From: an alpha proteobacterium AAP81b
Lineage (GTDB): Bacteria > Pseudomonadota > Alphaproteobacteria > Sphingomonadales > Sphingomonadaceae
DNA: 48,292 nucleotides
Assembly: GCA_001295935.1 (NCBI GenBank)
Contig: LJHX01000061.1
Coordinates: forward strand, 1-48,292
Direction of reading: 5' to 3'
The notes beneath the pieces were generated by a model. It had not been told where the DNA came from. It searched no databases and worked only from the letters and a program-made list of their open reading frames with translations. This document shows positions 41,735-46,261 of this stretch, piece after piece. The first letter of the stretch is position 1, and the number at the start of each line of letters is the position of its first letter. The translations under genes and the position numbers were made by a program.

Positions 41735-41965
41735 TCAGAAATCCACCCCCGCGGCAATCGCTTCCAGCTTGCGGATGCGCTCCTTCAGATCGGCAAGGTC
41801 GATACGCTGGCCGATGGCGGGCAGCGTGTCGCCCTGGCGGCGGTCGAGCTCGTGAAGTCGCAGCTTGAGCCAGCCGGCCCAGGCCCAGGCAGCGAAGCCG
41901 CCGAGCATGGCGAGGCCGAGGAGACCGGCGCTGCTGAGGATGAAAAGCTGATCGGCGGCGAGCAT
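41735..41965 (-). CDS. Small membrane protein, last gene of the psp operon
   Basis: 76 residues; AAGGAGG precedes the ATG ideally. One membrane helix (LFILSSAGLLGLAMLGGFAAWAWAGW) is followed by a basic turn and a short coiled-coil helix (ADLKERIRKLEAIAAGVDF), which resembles the start of the ERIxVLERIATD signature of the four genes upstream but ends early. Probably a shortened family member. It could sense or anchor PspA, but this is inference from the operon. Confidence 0.75.
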   Translation of the reverse strand: MLAADQLFILSSAGLLGLAMLGGFAAWAWAGWLKLRLHELDRRQGDTLPAIGQRIDLADLKERIRKLEAIAAGVDF

Positions 41966-41976
41966 GGCGATCCTCC

Positions 41977-42234
41977 TTAGCGGTCCTTGAGGGCGTCGAT
42001 TTCGTCCGACAGCCGGCGCGCCGGGTCGGTGGCGAGGCGTTCGAGCACCTTGATGCGGTCGTTGAGCCGCGCGACTTCGCTGCGCAGCTGCGCGGCCTCC
42101 GCGGCGCTGGCGCCATCGTCGGCGAGCGCGGCGCGGAGGCGGCGGCCGACGCGCGGCTCGCCGTAGCGAGCGCGAAGTACCCGGCCGATCGTGGTGATCA
42201 GCACGATCAGCACAACCATTTCTGCCCAATGCAT
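41977..42234 (-). CDS. PspB-like small membrane protein, tandem paralogue 4
   Basis: 85 residues; AAAGGGA precedes the ATG. One N-terminal helix (AEMVVLIVLITTIGRVL), the basic link RARYGEP (RARHGYP in a paralogue), and a C-terminal coiled coil ending LNDRIKVLERLATDPARRLSDEIDALKDR-like signature (positions 42042-41980). The topology matches PspB: short membrane anchor plus cytoplasmic leucine-zipper helix. Confidence 0.78.
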   Translation of the reverse strand: MHWAEMVVLIVLITTIGRVLRARYGEPRVGRRLRAALADDGASAAEAAQLRSEVARLNDRIKVLERLATDPARRLSDEIDALKDR

Positions 42235-42263
42235 GGGGTGGTCCCTTTGTCTGGAAGCGGTGG

Positions 42264-42590
42264 CTAGTTGACCGATTTCGGCGCCAGGCGGTCGATCTCG
42301 GCGGCCAGGCGGGTCGGGCCATCGGTGGCGATGCGTTCGAGCACCTGGAGGCGATCCTTGATGCTACCAAGCTCGGCCTTGAGCTGGGCATTTTCCTGGG
42401 TGATCAGGCGGATGCGTTCGACCTGCTCGCTGCTCTGCATCGGCAACAGCGGCTTGCCCCAGCTCGATTCGAGCGGATAGCCGTGACGGACCTTGAGCCA
42501 GGTCGTCGCGACCCAGCCGAGCGAGGCGGTGGCGACGCCGAGGCCGAGCACCGGCGACAGCATGTCGATGATGACGGGATCGATTGCCAT
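42264..42590 (-). CDS. PspB-like small membrane protein, tandem paralogue 3
   Basis: 108 residues; GAGGA lies before the ATG. The membrane segment is LSPVLGLGVATASLGWVATTWL, followed by KVRHGYPLESSWG, almost the same as in paralogue 1 (RARHGYPIENEWG). A coiled coil (VERIRLITQENAQLKAELG) leads to the signature LQVLERIATDGPTRLAAEID. The shared middle and end show origin by tandem duplication. No enzymatic motif. Confidence 0.8.
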   Translation of the reverse strand: MAIDPVIIDMLSPVLGLGVATASLGWVATTWLKVRHGYPLESSWGKPLLPMQSSEQVERIRLITQENAQLKAELGSIKDRLQVLERIATDGPTRLAAEIDRLAPKSVN

Positions 42591-42599
42591 GTCAGGTCC

Positions 42600-42905
42600 T
42601 CAATTGCGGGCGTTGACGTCGCGCAGCGGCGGCATCGGCGCCGCCGGTGGCGTATCGCGGAGTGCTTCGATCTGCGCCGTCAGCCCCTCGTTGCGATCGG
42701 TGACGATGCGGTTGAGCACGGCGACGCGCTCTTCGAGGGTGGCGATCTTGGCGGCATATTGCGCCGCCTGCTCGGCGGTAACCTTGGCCGTCACTTCGAG
42801 GCGCTTTTCCTGCAGCTTCGCCAGGCGGTTGACGATCGAATAGACGATCCCCAGCACCGGGATCAGCATCGCCGTGATCGGGATCAGGAAGGGACTGATT
42901 TCCAT
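42600..42905 (-). CDS. PspB-like small membrane protein, tandem paralogue 2 (divergent)
   Basis: 101 residues; GAAGGA precedes the ATG. Membrane segment FLIPITAMLIPVLGIVYSIV, then a long coiled coil (LAKLQEKRLEVTAKVTAEQAA) and a drifted signature RVAVLNRIVTDRNEGLTAQI, ending in a proline-rich tail. It lacks the RHGYP link of its neighbours. The order of parts still matches the group. Confidence 0.78.
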   Translation of the reverse strand: MEISPFLIPITAMLIPVLGIVYSIVNRLAKLQEKRLEVTAKVTAEQAAQYAAKIATLEERVAVLNRIVTDRNEGLTAQIEALRDTPPAAPMPPLRDVNARN

Positions 42906-42916
42906 CGCAAGGTCCT

Positions 42917-43210
42917 TCAGCGCAGTTTGTCGATTTCGGCGGTCAGCCGGGCGGGGGTGTCGGTGGCGATGCGTTCGAGCACCGCCAGCCGCTCCTCGAG
43001 CCGGCCCATCCGGCCGCGCAGCATCTCGTTCTCGCTTTCGAGCAGGGCGTTCTGGCGCTTCAGCTCAACGGGGCCGTCCTTGCCGATGGTGCCACCCCAT
43101 TCATTCTCGATCGGGTAGCCATGGCGGGCGCGGATGGCGGTGGTGATGATCCAGGCGATGAAGCTCATCGCGATGATCGAAAGCACAAAGGCGGGTCCGC
43201 CCATATCCAT
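42917..43210 (-). CDS. PspB-like small membrane protein, tandem paralogue 1
   Basis: 97 residues; AAGGGG precedes the ATG. Membrane segment FVLSIIAMSFIAWIITTAI, link RARHGYPIENEWGG, coiled coil ELKRQNALLESENEMLRGRM, and the clearest form of the signature ERLAVLERIATDTPARLTAE followed by IDKLR. It follows the long PspC, which ends in a related RLxxEIDSLR tail. Likely part of an inner-membrane Psp sensor complex. Confidence 0.82.
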   Translation of the reverse strand: MDMGGPAFVLSIIAMSFIAWIITTAIRARHGYPIENEWGGTIGKDGPVELKRQNALLESENEMLRGRMGRLEERLAVLERIATDTPARLTAEIDKLR

Positions 43211-43242
43211 GTCGTGTCCCCTTGCAGCGCGCCGGGCGTGGC

Positions 43243-43623
43243 CTAGCGCAGGCTGTCGATCTCGTTGGCGAGGCGCTGGTTCGACGAGGTCACATAGGCC
43301 TCGATCCCGCGCAGCCGGCGATCGGCATCGCGAAAGGCGGCGTTGACGTCGCGCACCGTGCGCTGCGGTGAAACCCGCACCTTGCGCCAGAATTCGCGCT
43401 CGTCGGCGCTGTCGTTGTAAAGCATCGACGGCTTGGGATCGACGATCCAGTTGATCGCCAGATAGACGAGCGGCAGGAAGCCGACCCCCGAGACCGTGGC
43501 GAGGACGAAACCGACGCGAACCAGCGTCACATCCCAGCCGAAGTAATCAGCGATCCCGGCGCAGACGCCGAGGAACTTGCCATTGCGCTTGTCGATATAG
43601 AAGCGCGTGCGGCGAACGGACAT
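43243..43623 (-). CDS. pspC: PspC-domain protein with C-terminal coiled-coil tail
   Basis: 126 residues; GGGGAG precedes the ATG. The PspC domain is FYIDKRNGKFLGVCAGIADYFGWDVTLVRV followed by a membrane helix (VLATVSGVGFLPLVYLAINWIV). The tail (FRDADRRLRGIEAYVTSSNQ, then RLANEIDSLR) ends with the same RLxxEIDxLR as the small paralogues downstream. In enterobacteria PspC with PspB senses inner-membrane stress and recruits PspA. The shared tail suggests these proteins interact through it. Confidence 0.93.
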   Translation of the reverse strand: MSVRRTRFYIDKRNGKFLGVCAGIADYFGWDVTLVRVGFVLATVSGVGFLPLVYLAINWIVDPKPSMLYNDSADEREFWRKVRVSPQRTVRDVNAAFRDADRRLRGIEAYVTSSNQRLANEIDSLR

Positions 43624-43650
43624 TATCAGAAACTCCCCTGTTGGCGGCGG

Positions 43651-43836
43651 TCAGGCGGCGGGCGCGACCAGGCCGACGATGATGTAGAGCAGCACCGGGC
43701 TGCCGAAGCCGATGAGGGTGGCGACGACAAAGGCGATCCGAACCCAGGTCGTGTCGATATTGGCGTAGCGAGCAAGGCCGGCGCACACGCCCCAGAGCTT
43801 GGCGTTGGCTTTGTCGAGGGCAAAGGAACCGTTCAT
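43651..43836 (-). CDS. Minimal PspC-domain protein
   Basis: 61 residues: a PspC domain only (FALDKANAKLWGVCAGLARYANIDTTWVRI, then AFVVATLIGFGSPVLLYIIVGLV). It keeps the GVCAGLA and WVRI positions of the family and stops after the membrane helix. It starts 2 bases after the PspB stop. Second of two PspC copies in the operon; it could be a competitor or partner of the long form. Confidence 0.88.
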   Translation of the reverse strand: MNGSFALDKANAKLWGVCAGLARYANIDTTWVRIAFVVATLIGFGSPVLLYIIVGLVAPAA

Positions 43837-43838
43837 TT

Positions 43839-44153
43839 TCAGCGCCTGCGCTCGTCGCGCAGCTCCCTGACATTTGGCGGAAGGGCAGTGTCGCGCGGCT
43901 GCTCGACACCATGGTCGGTGATGCGGGCATCCTTCCAGCCGGGGTGATCGGCGGTGAGGATGCGTTCGATCGAGTCGATCCGCTGGTCGAGCCGGCGCGC
44001 CATGTCATGGAGCTGGTCGAGCAGCGCTTCGTCCTGCTGGCTGAGCCCGCGAGCGGACTTCCAGCGGGTGAGATAGTGGAGGACCAGCCACGGCAGGCCG
44101 ATGAACAGCGTGCAGATGGCGACGACGGGAACGGCAATCCAGGAATCTTCCAT
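43839..44153 (-). CDS. pspB: PspB-like envelope stress membrane protein
   Basis: 104 residues. Membrane segment IAVPVVAICTLFIGLPWLVLHYL, then a cytoplasmic helix (QDEALLDQLHDMARRLDQRIDSIERIL) as in PspB, and a C-terminal tail of ~35 polar residues. It lies between pspA and the PspC genes, the usual place for pspB, with gaps of 5 and 2 bases. The ERIL segment is a weak version of the ERIATD signature of the downstream paralogues. Confidence 0.88.
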   Translation of the reverse strand: MEDSWIAVPVVAICTLFIGLPWLVLHYLTRWKSARGLSQQDEALLDQLHDMARRLDQRIDSIERILTADHPGWKDARITDHGVEQPRDTALPPNVRELRDERRR

Positions 44154-44158
44154 CGCGC

Positions 44159-44833
44159 CTACTCCGCTGCCTTGCTGAGCCGTGCCTTCATGGCGGCGAG
44201 CTCGGCCGAGACCTCGTCCTCCGCCGACAGGTCGGCGAATTCATCGGCGAGGGTGCGCGGACCGGTCGAACCGATGGCCAGCGCGTCGGCGCGGCCTTCG
44301 GCAAGATCGGCACGGCGTTCGAGAACGTCGAAGCGGGCAAAGGCTTCCTCGGTGCGTGGCCCCTTGGTCATCTCGATCAGCCGCGAGCGCTGGGTGGCGC
44401 TCTCGATGCGGTTGAGCGCGACATTCTGGCGGCTGCGCGCCTCGCGAAGCTTTTGTTCGAGCTTGTGGATATCGGCTTCGTTGAGCGCCAGGCTGGCATC
44501 GAGTTCATCGATCTCGGCTTGCGTCGCGTCGGCGAAGCTCTTGGCTTTGGCCTTTTCGACAAGCGCTGCCTTGGCGAGGTCCTCGCGGCCCTTGCTCAGC
44601 GCCAGTTCGGCCTTGTCGGCCCAGCTGGTCTGCGCGGCTTCGGCGCGGATGACGGCGCGGCGGAGTTCCTTCTGGTCGGCGATGGTACGGGCCGCCGAGG
44701 CGCGAACTTCGACCAGCGTCTCCTCCATCTCCATGATGATCATGCGGATCATCTTCGCCGGATCTTCGGCGCGGTCGAGGAGGTCGTTGACGTTGGCGGC
44801 GATGATATCGCGGGTTCGCGAGAAAATACCCAT
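44159..44833 (-). CDS. pspA: Phage shock protein A
   Basis: 224 residues from ATG 44833. The N-terminus is MGIFSRTRDIIAANVNDLLD, the amphipathic membrane-binding helix of PspA/Vipp1 (ESCRT-III superfamily). It continues with EDPAKMIRMIIMEMEETLVEVRAS and long coiled coils. PspA protects damaged inner membrane by forming oligomers and, in enterobacteria, also inhibits PspF. A longer in-frame start at 44905 would destroy the amphipathic N-terminus and is not used. It is the second gene after the sigma-54 promoter. Confidence 0.97.
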   Translation of the reverse strand: MGIFSRTRDIIAANVNDLLDRAEDPAKMIRMIIMEMEETLVEVRASAARTIADQKELRRAVIRAEAAQTSWADKAELALSKGREDLAKAALVEKAKAKSFADATQAEIDELDASLALNEADIHKLEQKLREARSRQNVALNRIESATQRSRLIEMTKGPRTEEAFARFDVLERRADLAEGRADALAIGSTGPRTLADEFADLSAEDEVSAELAAMKARLSKAAE

Positions 44834-44915
44834 GAAGTGGCTCCGATCGTGCTGGAGGAGGGGGGCCGGCGGCGGGAGGGGCGAACCGCCGCCGGCCATC
44901 GTCACGGCTGAGGGA

Positions 44916-45041
44916 TCAGGCGAGCGTGACGATATGCGAAGTGGCGGGCACCATCGCCGGCGCTGTGGCGGCGAGGAGGACGGTGCTGCCGAGGACGAGA
45001 GCGGCGACGGCGCCGATGAGGTTGGTCATGAGGTTGGTCAT
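44916..45041 (-). CDS. 41-residue hydrophobic protein, first gene of the psp operon
   Basis: ATG 45041 is preceded by GGGAGA. The protein has a polar start (MTNLMTN) and a hydrophobic helix (LIGAVAALVLGSTVLLAATA) with a short tail ending SHIVTLA. It could be a small membrane peptide or a signal peptide with a very short secreted remainder. It lies ~53 bases after the expected sigma-54 start site, with no other promoter between it and pspA. No family recognised. Confidence 0.68.
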   Translation of the reverse strand: MTNLMTNLIGAVAALVLGSTVLLAATAPAMVPATSHIVTLA

Positions 45042-45104: not shown

Positions 45105-45120
45105 TGCATGAGGCGTGCCA
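45105..45120 (-). promoter_or_regulatory. Sigma-54 promoter of the psp operon
   Basis: Minus strand TGGCACG-CCTC-ATGCA: against TGGCACG-N4-TTGCA only one consensus base differs, and the GG and GC are correctly spaced (-24/-12). Transcription would begin near 45094, 53 bases before the first small gene. The activator pspF is divergent, as in E. coli. Confidence 0.88.
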
Positions 45121-45232: not shown

Positions 45233-46261
45233 ATGGCTCCCGCTGCCCAGCTGATCGGCTCATCCTCGGCGTTTCTCGACGCCGTCGAGGCGGCGTCGGC
45301 GGCGGCGCGGCTCAGCCGGCCGGTGCTCGTCATCGGCGAGCGCGGCACCGGCAAGGAACTGATCGCCGAGCGCCTCCACCGCCTCAGCCCCCGCTGGGGC
45401 GGCCCGCTGGTCAGCCTCAACTGCGCCGCGCTGCCTGAAAATCTCGTCGATGCCGAGCTGTTCGGGCACGAAGCGGGGGCCTTCACGGGGGCGAGCCGAG
45501 CGCGCGCCGGACGCTTCGAGGATGCCGACGGGGGAACACTGTTCCTCGACGAGATCGCGACGCTTTCCGCCGCTGCCCAGGAGCGCCTGCTGCGCGTCGT
45601 CGAATATGGCGAACTGACCCGCCTCGGCTCGAACAAGCCCGTCCAGGTCGATGTCCGGCTTGTCGGCGCCACCAACGAGGACCTGCCCGGCCTCGTCGCC
45701 CGCGGGCGCTTCCGCGCCGACCTTCTCGACCGCCTGTCGTTCGAGGTCATCACCCTGCCGCCGCTTCGCGAACGCGCCGAGGATATCGGCGTGCTGGCGC
45801 TGCACTTCGGCCGGCGCATGGCCTCCGAACTCGGCTGGCCGCGCTTCGTCGGCTTCACGCCCCAAGCGCTGGCGCTGCTCGAGGCCCACCCCTGGCCGGG
45901 CAATATCCGCGAGCTCAAGAACGTCGTCGAACGCGCCGTCTATCGCTGGGGCGACGAGGCGACTCCCGTCGGCCGGATCATCATCGACCCGTTCGAATCG
46001 CCCTGGCGGCCGGGCGGCGCACCGGCCCCTGTGGCATCACTGCCCGCGAAGATCGACCCCGCGGGCGATGTCGCCGCCCCGGCGCGGCCGGCAAGCGTCG
46101 CCGATCTGCGCGCCGCGGTGCACGCCTATGAGAAGGACCTGCTGCTTGCGGCGCTCGAACGCTGCCGCCACAACCAGCGCAAGACCGCCGCCGCGCTGGC
46201 GCTGACCTATGACCAGCTGCGCCACGCCTTGAAACGGCACGACCTGCTGGAAAAGGAATAG
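45233..46261 (+). CDS. pspF: Sigma-54-dependent psp operon activator PspF
   Basis: 342 residues. It lacks a receiver domain and starts directly with the AAA+ domain, as PspF does (AQLIGSSSAFLDAVEAAS). Walker A GERGTGKE is at 35-42, the sigma-54 contact loop GAFTGA at 82-87, Walker B GTLFLDE at 101-107, and the arginine-finger region FRADLLDRLSF follows. The C-terminal Fis-like helix-turn-helix is CRHNQRKTAAALALTYDQLRHALKRH. ATG 45233 matches the family start; in-frame TTG 45206 and GTG 45209 are less likely. It is divergent from the psp operon and is predicted to be held by PspA. Confidence 0.96.
   Translation: MAPAAQLIGSSSAFLDAVEAASAAARLSRPVLVIGERGTGKELIAERLHRLSPRWGGPLVSLNCAALPENLVDAELFGHEAGAFTGASRARAGRFEDADGGTLFLDEIATLSAAAQERLLRVVEYGELTRLGSNKPVQVDVRLVGATNEDLPGLVARGRFRADLLDRLSFEVITLPPLRERAEDIGVLALHFGRRMASELGWPRFVGFTPQALALLEAHPWPGNIRELKNVVERAVYRWGDEATPVGRIIIDPFESPWRPGGAPAPVASLPAKIDPAGDVAAPARPASVADLRAAVHAYEKDLLLAALERCRHNQRKTAAALALTYDQLRHALKRHDLLEKE

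Follow-up and report, generated by a model that had tools for sequence, protein, structure and literature searches.

Most knowledge of the phage-shock response comes from Escherichia coli and Yersinia, which have one PspB and one PspC. In the window analysed here (the whole stretch of 48,292 nucleotides, positions 1 to 48,292 of contig LJHX01000061.1 of the alpha proteobacterium AAP81b, Sphingomonadaceae), the phage-shock (psp) operon is extended by an array of five short genes, g6-g10, followed by a gene that we take from its sequence to be sufE. This array is conserved, old and found together with PspA; PspB-like extra genes are already mentioned in the literature (Ravi et al. 2024). We tentatively propose, as a reading whose probability falls a little short of even, that the array products are membrane-anchored tails of PspC/PspB type docking or regulating PspA. 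Assignment by profile places the five genes in five orthologous slots, C to G:

42917..43210, minus strand: slot C (g6), 97 amino acids (aa); helix, HGYPIE link, tail module
42600..42905, minus strand: slot D (g7), 101 aa; helix, long coiled coil, divergent tail module, proline-rich end
42264..42590, minus strand: slot E (g8), 108 aa; helix, HGYPLESSWGK link, tail module
41977..42234, minus strand: slot F (g9), 85 aa; probably ancestral type
41735..41965, minus strand: slot G (g10), 76 aa; truncated module DLKERIRKLEAIAAGVDF

Slots C, D, E and F are, judging from their profiles, clearly homologous to each other. The hhalign probabilities among them amount to 98.7-99.9, while control profiles of PspA, AtpF and FtsB from the same bacteria (28/28 AtpF and 26/26 FtsB sequences) reach at most 38 against any slot, PspB or PspC. 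Slot G appears to be a weaker, truncated relative, linked through D (95.6) and F (90.2) rather than E (54) or C (6.4). Similarity beyond generic coiled coil, on which the preliminary description of this DNA had staked its proposal of a protein family, is thus present in C-F and weaker in G.

The same C-F proteins are also related to the tail of PspC. Their C-terminal signature corresponds to the C-terminal tail of PspC, RRLxxIExYxTSxNxRLAxEIExLR, and recurs in PspB over a shorter stretch. Alignment of C-F with the PspC tail yields hhalign probabilities of 93.1-95.5 over 38-77 columns, that with PspB 66.7-93.9 over 20-30 columns; PspB and PspC compared with each other give 21.6. Among 50 heptad-block shuffles, the PspC score was reached by 1 for slot C, by none for D, E and F, and by 20 for G; the PspB score was reached by 2 (C), 3 (D), 1 (E), 1 (F) and 7 (G). 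Since heptad shuffles almost never reach the PspC scores, C-F are considered to have the PspC tail beyond coiled-coil periodicity. Majority tails read LEERxaVLERIATDapxRLaaEIExLR in slot C, LEqRVrVLERIVTDRgxdlAxQIEaLR in D, KDRLAvvERIvTDxgxrLaaEIdaLr in E, DRRLaDiExYyTSsNxrLAdEIExLR in PspC and LDxRldTVERIvAADNP in PspB. They depend on hand-made anchors, by which 42/42 rows were anchored for C, 77/80 for D, 49/54 for E, 60/62 for F, 56/56 for G, 46/65 for PspC and 64/64 for PspB.

At the level of single proteins, g6-g10 (76-108 aa) have one N-terminal hydrophobic stretch apiece, and the charge across it rises in the PspB direction, in g6 by only 1. Hydrophobicity and charge therefore agree with the earlier proposal of five small proteins, each with one N-terminal membrane helix and PspB-like topology. 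The predicted layout is a single N-terminal membrane helix with a C-terminal helix that would be oriented to the cytoplasm. AlphaFold2 models of slot C (predicted local distance difference test, pLDDT, 76; predicted template modelling score, pTM, 0.36; helices H6-29 and H46-96) and of PspC (pLDDT 79, the other four models 58-69; tail helix 86-125) are mainly helical and support only this helix-link-helix layout with a long C-terminal helix. The signature, previously ascribed to four proteins, is found in g6, g8 and g9 and in a divergent version, LNRIVTDRNEGLTAQIEAL, in g7; g10 retains only LKERIRKLEAIAAGVDF. The link described as RHGYP[LI]E in two of them was recovered as HGYP[LI]E in g6 and g8.

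None of g6-g10 exceeds a curated Pfam or NCBIfam cut-off, and PF06667 has no match among them at an expectation value (E) up to 1. The best match to TIGR02976 is that of g7 (E 0.0072, 16.6 bits against a cut-off of 51.7). The PspC domain PF04024 does not match any of the five, and neither PspD nor PspG is among the Pfam or NCBIfam matches listed for the array at E<=1. Sequence searches of the PDB gave only weak matches for the slot F profile (best E 0.013, a potassium channel) and zero matches for the PspC profile. When members of slots C, E and F were scanned as families against 18,950 NCBIfam families, the commonest named matches of slot F were PspB (8/27 at E<=0.01, best 1.1e-6) and PspC (6/27), and that of slot E was PspC (TIGR02978; 14/28, best 1.3e-4). 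One gene from an array region, G114:C2:124282-124458, does exceed the PF06667 cut-off (32.8 versus 25.6 bits).

To the window's locus, 65 further Sphingomonadaceae psp loci were added, one per genome. At least one array gene occurs in 64 of the 66 loci, by which an oddity of a single genome is rejected; loci L024 and L026 are cut short by the ends of their contigs, and the array genes of both genomes are located on other contigs. The gene sufE is reached in 56/66 loci, and the array there lies between pspC and sufE. These loci contain 2 (1 locus), 3 (5), 4 (15), 5 (22), 6 (9) or 7 (4) copies. The other 10 loci have no sufE in their gene calls owing to a contig end, a different neighbour or a missed call. 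Copy counts rest on the gene caller, which may miss a member; the array of L056 and some outgroup pspB and pspC genes were missed by it and recovered by six-frame search.

A scan of named genomes gave at least 573 relatives, the best 80 of which were kept. Named isolates among these 80 are sphingomonads (Sphingomonas, Sphingobium, Novosphingobium, Sphingopyxis, Blastomonas, Qipengyuania, Polymorphobacter and others), and the longest array among them has 8 members (L198). At class level, the slot-F profile matches 3 of 142 genomes, namely that of the window, another member of its family and a borderline case (E 7.2e-5).

In an unrooted tree of 295 array members, slots E (54/54) and G (56/56) each form one group, as do 78/80 of slot D (support 0.59) and 38/42 of slot C (support 0.86). 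Because slots form family-wide groups, the main slot duplications are judged to be family-wide and to predate the radiation of the family; recent amplification was rejected on this ground. Extra copies of C, D or F look later. Slot F is scattered on the tree, with its largest pure group comprising 22/63 members, as expected of an ancestral type, and probably represents one. The groups E and G also bear on the alternative that the five proteins are generic coiled coils, unrelated in any specific way to one another or to PspB/PspC. This alternative could draw on the weakness of slot G and on the PspB match, which is marginal under heptad-preserving shuffles. It is rejected for C-F by their hhalign values relative to the controls and by the shuffles, and is left with next to no credibility.

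Median ratio of nonsynonymous to synonymous polymorphism (pN/pS) within the genus is 0.44-0.54 for array slots, 0.47 for pspB and pspC, and 0.61 for a short pspC gene that precedes pspC. All five array slots are under purifying selection similar to that on pspB and pspC, which argues that the array proteins are translated.

Outside the family, a strong F-type gene (E <= 1.4e-13) was found in 8/10 genomes that represent other families within the order; six of the ten had been picked for a known F-type match, and 2/4 of the remaining ones are positive. In seven outgroup genomes this gene and pspA are on different contigs or over 400 kilobases apart, and G038 has two F-type copies, only one of them in the operon. 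In two of 12 outgroup loci (L082 and L087) pspC adjoins sufE with no array between them. The simplest history would be that a stand-alone F-type gene entered between pspC and sufE and then multiplied in Sphingomonadaceae. Repeated duplication of a PspB-type gene had been proposed as the source of the array. The PspB-related motif and the tandem paralogues stand, but the PspC tail matches better and over a longer stretch and no PspB cut-off is passed by the window's five proteins. PspB duplication is one possible origin; a stand-alone F-type ancestor is likelier.

The array goes with PspA without needing PspB. PspB was searched in 119 family genomes that are at least 95% complete and was found in 111, in 110 of them as a single match. 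Six of the 8 PspB-less genomes, spread over five genera, are without PspA (E <= 1e-10) and also without an array match (F profile, E <= 0.001). PspB-less G076 (locus L076) keeps both PspA and the array, and the same is true for G167 and G333 (L219), further genomes without PspB; in G167, the best match to the PspB family (E 0.008) is array slot F itself. The operon of G076 presents a natural experiment: its PspC is without a tail, pspB is gone, and array slots D and F are kept.

The absence of array matches (F profile) from all six PspA-less genomes among the 119 is difficult to reconcile with an effector scaffold that is independent of PspA, i.e. an extra effector like PspG or PspD whose hetero-oligomers stiffen or patch the membrane. 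Such a scaffold would be in keeping with the joint encoding of one-helix coiled-coil proteins in sets that are not identical, and likewise with the solitary F-type genes that other families carry away from psp. On balance, we regard it as decidedly improbable.

The array belongs to a run of ten minus-strand genes (41735-45041: leader gene, pspA, pspB, short pspC, pspC and g6-g10), as described before. Gaps within the run are 2-32 bases, with the sole exception of 82 bases between the leader gene and pspA. The remaining features of the locus are as follows:

45233..46261, plus strand: pspF-like sigma-54 activator gene, divergent, named from sequence
45105..45120, minus strand: sigma-54-type promoter site of the operon, TGGCACGCCTCATGCA, 10/11 consensus bases
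44916..45041, minus strand: leader gene, 41 aa, hydrophobic; similar open reading frames (ORFs) in the genus
44159..44833, minus strand: pspA, 224 aa; PF04012 1.6e-36, TIGR02977 above cut-off
43839..44153, minus strand: pspB, 104 aa; PF06667 1.1e-24, TIGR02976 above cut-off
43651..43836, minus strand: short pspC, 61 aa, without tail; PF04024 1.2e-17
43243..43623, minus strand: pspC, 126 aa, with C-terminal tail RRLRGIEAYVTSSNQRLANEIDSLR; TIGR02978 9.7e-37, above cut-off

Two one-mismatch matches to the sigma-54 site occur within the window alone, compared with 1.1 expected, which is not above chance. Conservation across psp loci places the site above chance: at least 10 of 11 consensus bases are found within 700 bases upstream of pspA in 75/78 psp loci and in 1/390 mononucleotide-shuffled controls. 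The sigma-54 promoter postulated ahead of the operon is thereby corroborated. The divergent gene is presumably pspF-like, given its AAA+ motifs GERGTGKE and GAFTGA and a C-terminal helix-turn-helix. Gaps between neighbouring array genes are at most 60 bases in 224/231 cases, including 65 overlaps. Lying in one gene run downstream of a conserved sigma-54 site, the array would thus be part of the PspF/sigma-54 regulon.

Several other features of the locus were observed. The genus of the window includes Sandarakinorhabdus and Polymorphobacter, and pspA is present in 24/24 of its genomes searched. Short tail-less PspC (60-67 aa) precedes pspC in 24/24 genus loci and in 0/42 other family loci; L058 has an extra tail-less PspC of different length. 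The leader gene is situated between the sigma-54 site and pspA and has ORF type AALLIGTTFxAAATGPA...NSDIVA. Similar ORFs occur in 23/24 genus loci (the exception is L016), and a profile built from these 23 finds 6 other loci. In some genera, a membrane protein of 57-63 aa, type AGIGLGSAIAVAISWSxNxSIIWAI...GFFxWFYVIYY, is encoded between slot G and sufE (L039, L059, L061, L064, L066, L073 and L074), and L037, L038 and L040 have a 40-45-aa membrane ORF with a DRPxRR motif directly 5' of slot F. Palindromes of the form CTCCCGC-N2-4-GCGGGAG occur four times in the window (25624, 35267, 41603 and 41709), the last two between the array and sufE; they look like a dispersed repeat.

We favour a docking or regulatory role because the array combines the end of the PspA-binding PspC tail with a PspF-type promoter. 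An array protein would consist of one membrane helix, a variable link and a C-terminal helix resembling the PspC tail, with its C-terminus in the cytoplasm. Such proteins would join PspC and PspB within the membrane and present PspA with further tails, differing from one another, for docking or regulation. As their genes lie behind the PspF/sigma-54 promoter, their levels would rise mainly after induction, so that the likeliest role would be a downstream one. There they might anchor PspA at the damaged membrane and set the amount of freed PspF. Primary sensing by the array is less likely.

A sensory role would assume that each paralogue detects a different membrane lesion via its own helix and link and signals to PspC/PspA through the common tail. 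Helices and links indeed vary between slots while the tail is shared, the slots are old and separately conserved, and copy number ranges from 2 to 8. Such sensors would, however, sit behind the very promoter they control, and within a slot the helix is by eye no more conserved than the tail; we consider diversified sensors unlikely. Location behind an inducible promoter and tail homology to interacting partners would also fit feedback brakes, in which array tails would shut the response off after induction by competing either for PspA or for the tail of PspC or PspB. According to a paper title, cytoplasmic interactions of PspB and PspC reportedly silence the Yersinia response. Sequence cannot separate a brake from docking, and keeping of the array where pspB is lost does not single out a brake. 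Its probability appears to be quite low.

Several observations weigh against tails of PspC/PspB type acting on PspA. Homology to PspB alone is marginal when compared with heptad shuffles (1-3 of 50 for C-F), and slot G, which is without the distal half of the tail, has a probability of 1.3 with PspB or PspC. Members of slot E match an unrelated coiled-coil family in 12/28 cases, near the 14/28 for PspC. Members of slot C match PspC in 2/45, PspB in 1/45 and GvpT in 2/45 cases in NCBIfam, and 0/45 match PspB or PspC in Pfam. In the outgroups, the F-type gene is for the most part not a member of the psp operon, so that its connection with PspA there is at most putative. As to co-occurrence, loss of the whole operon at once may explain the six PspA-less genomes, and G167 and G333 may share one pspB loss. 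G358, with array genes near a contig end, no PspB and a weak PspA match only, is uninformative. Absence of the array was judged by the F profile only, and the array check covered the 8 PspB-less genomes of the 119.

A farther-reaching version of the docking proposal is doubtful: the PspC/PspB tail may have given rise to combinatorial membrane receptors, up to 8 non-identical anchors recruiting PspA as a mixed oligomer, with PspB displaced and lost probably at least twice. If this were true, the phage-shock response of Sphingomonadaceae would be receptor-coded rather than PspBC-gated. In the conserved tail-only relatives, kept even in some PspB-less genomes, the PspA-binding tail is naturally uncoupled from the PspC core. 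The array would open the questions of what recruits PspA to the damaged membrane and what frees PspF to gene deletion in laboratory sphingomonads.

The preliminary description knew of no account of the array. Our literature searches found none either, apart from a single clause in Ravi et al. 2024 (PMC11237479) that mentions "PspB duplicates" of the psp operon and cites AOL22920.1 as an example. In the part of that article available to us, these are extra PspB-like genes in a pspABC operon and possibly this very array; the clause is silent on how many copies there are, on slots, on a relation to the PspC tail and on distribution. The available part of Popp et al. 2022 (PMC9239133) does not mention the array. 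In the sphingomonad Zymomonas mobilis, "pspD", ZMO1062, is numbered next to pspA (ZMO1063) (PMC8237431, PMC8645129). In the excerpts at hand, it is listed with pspA in a temperature-response table (PMC8237431) and up-regulated with pspABC on xylose (PMC8645129); it may be an array gene, the leader gene or neither.

PspB (PF06667, TIGR02976) resembles the array proteins in having an N-terminal membrane helix and a short cytoplasmic helix, RLxxRIxx[IVL]ER[IL], and in being encoded in the same operon. On the contrary, the window's five proteins fail both PspB cut-offs and their links differ; C-F have a distal tail of PspC type, and C and E an HGYPLE..WG motif. In Yersinia, according to the part of the source available to us, the C-terminal cytoplasmic domain of PspC binds PspA in the on state and thereby releases PspF (PMC5596341). 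The PspC tail, at the end of TIGR02978, shares with C-F the helix [IL]ExxxTxxxxRLxxEI[DE]xLR, whereas the array is devoid of the PF04024 domain and carries the tail alone on a single helix. The "divergent C-terminal PspB" named in the available part of Ravi et al. 2024 agrees with this relation of the array to the PspC tail.

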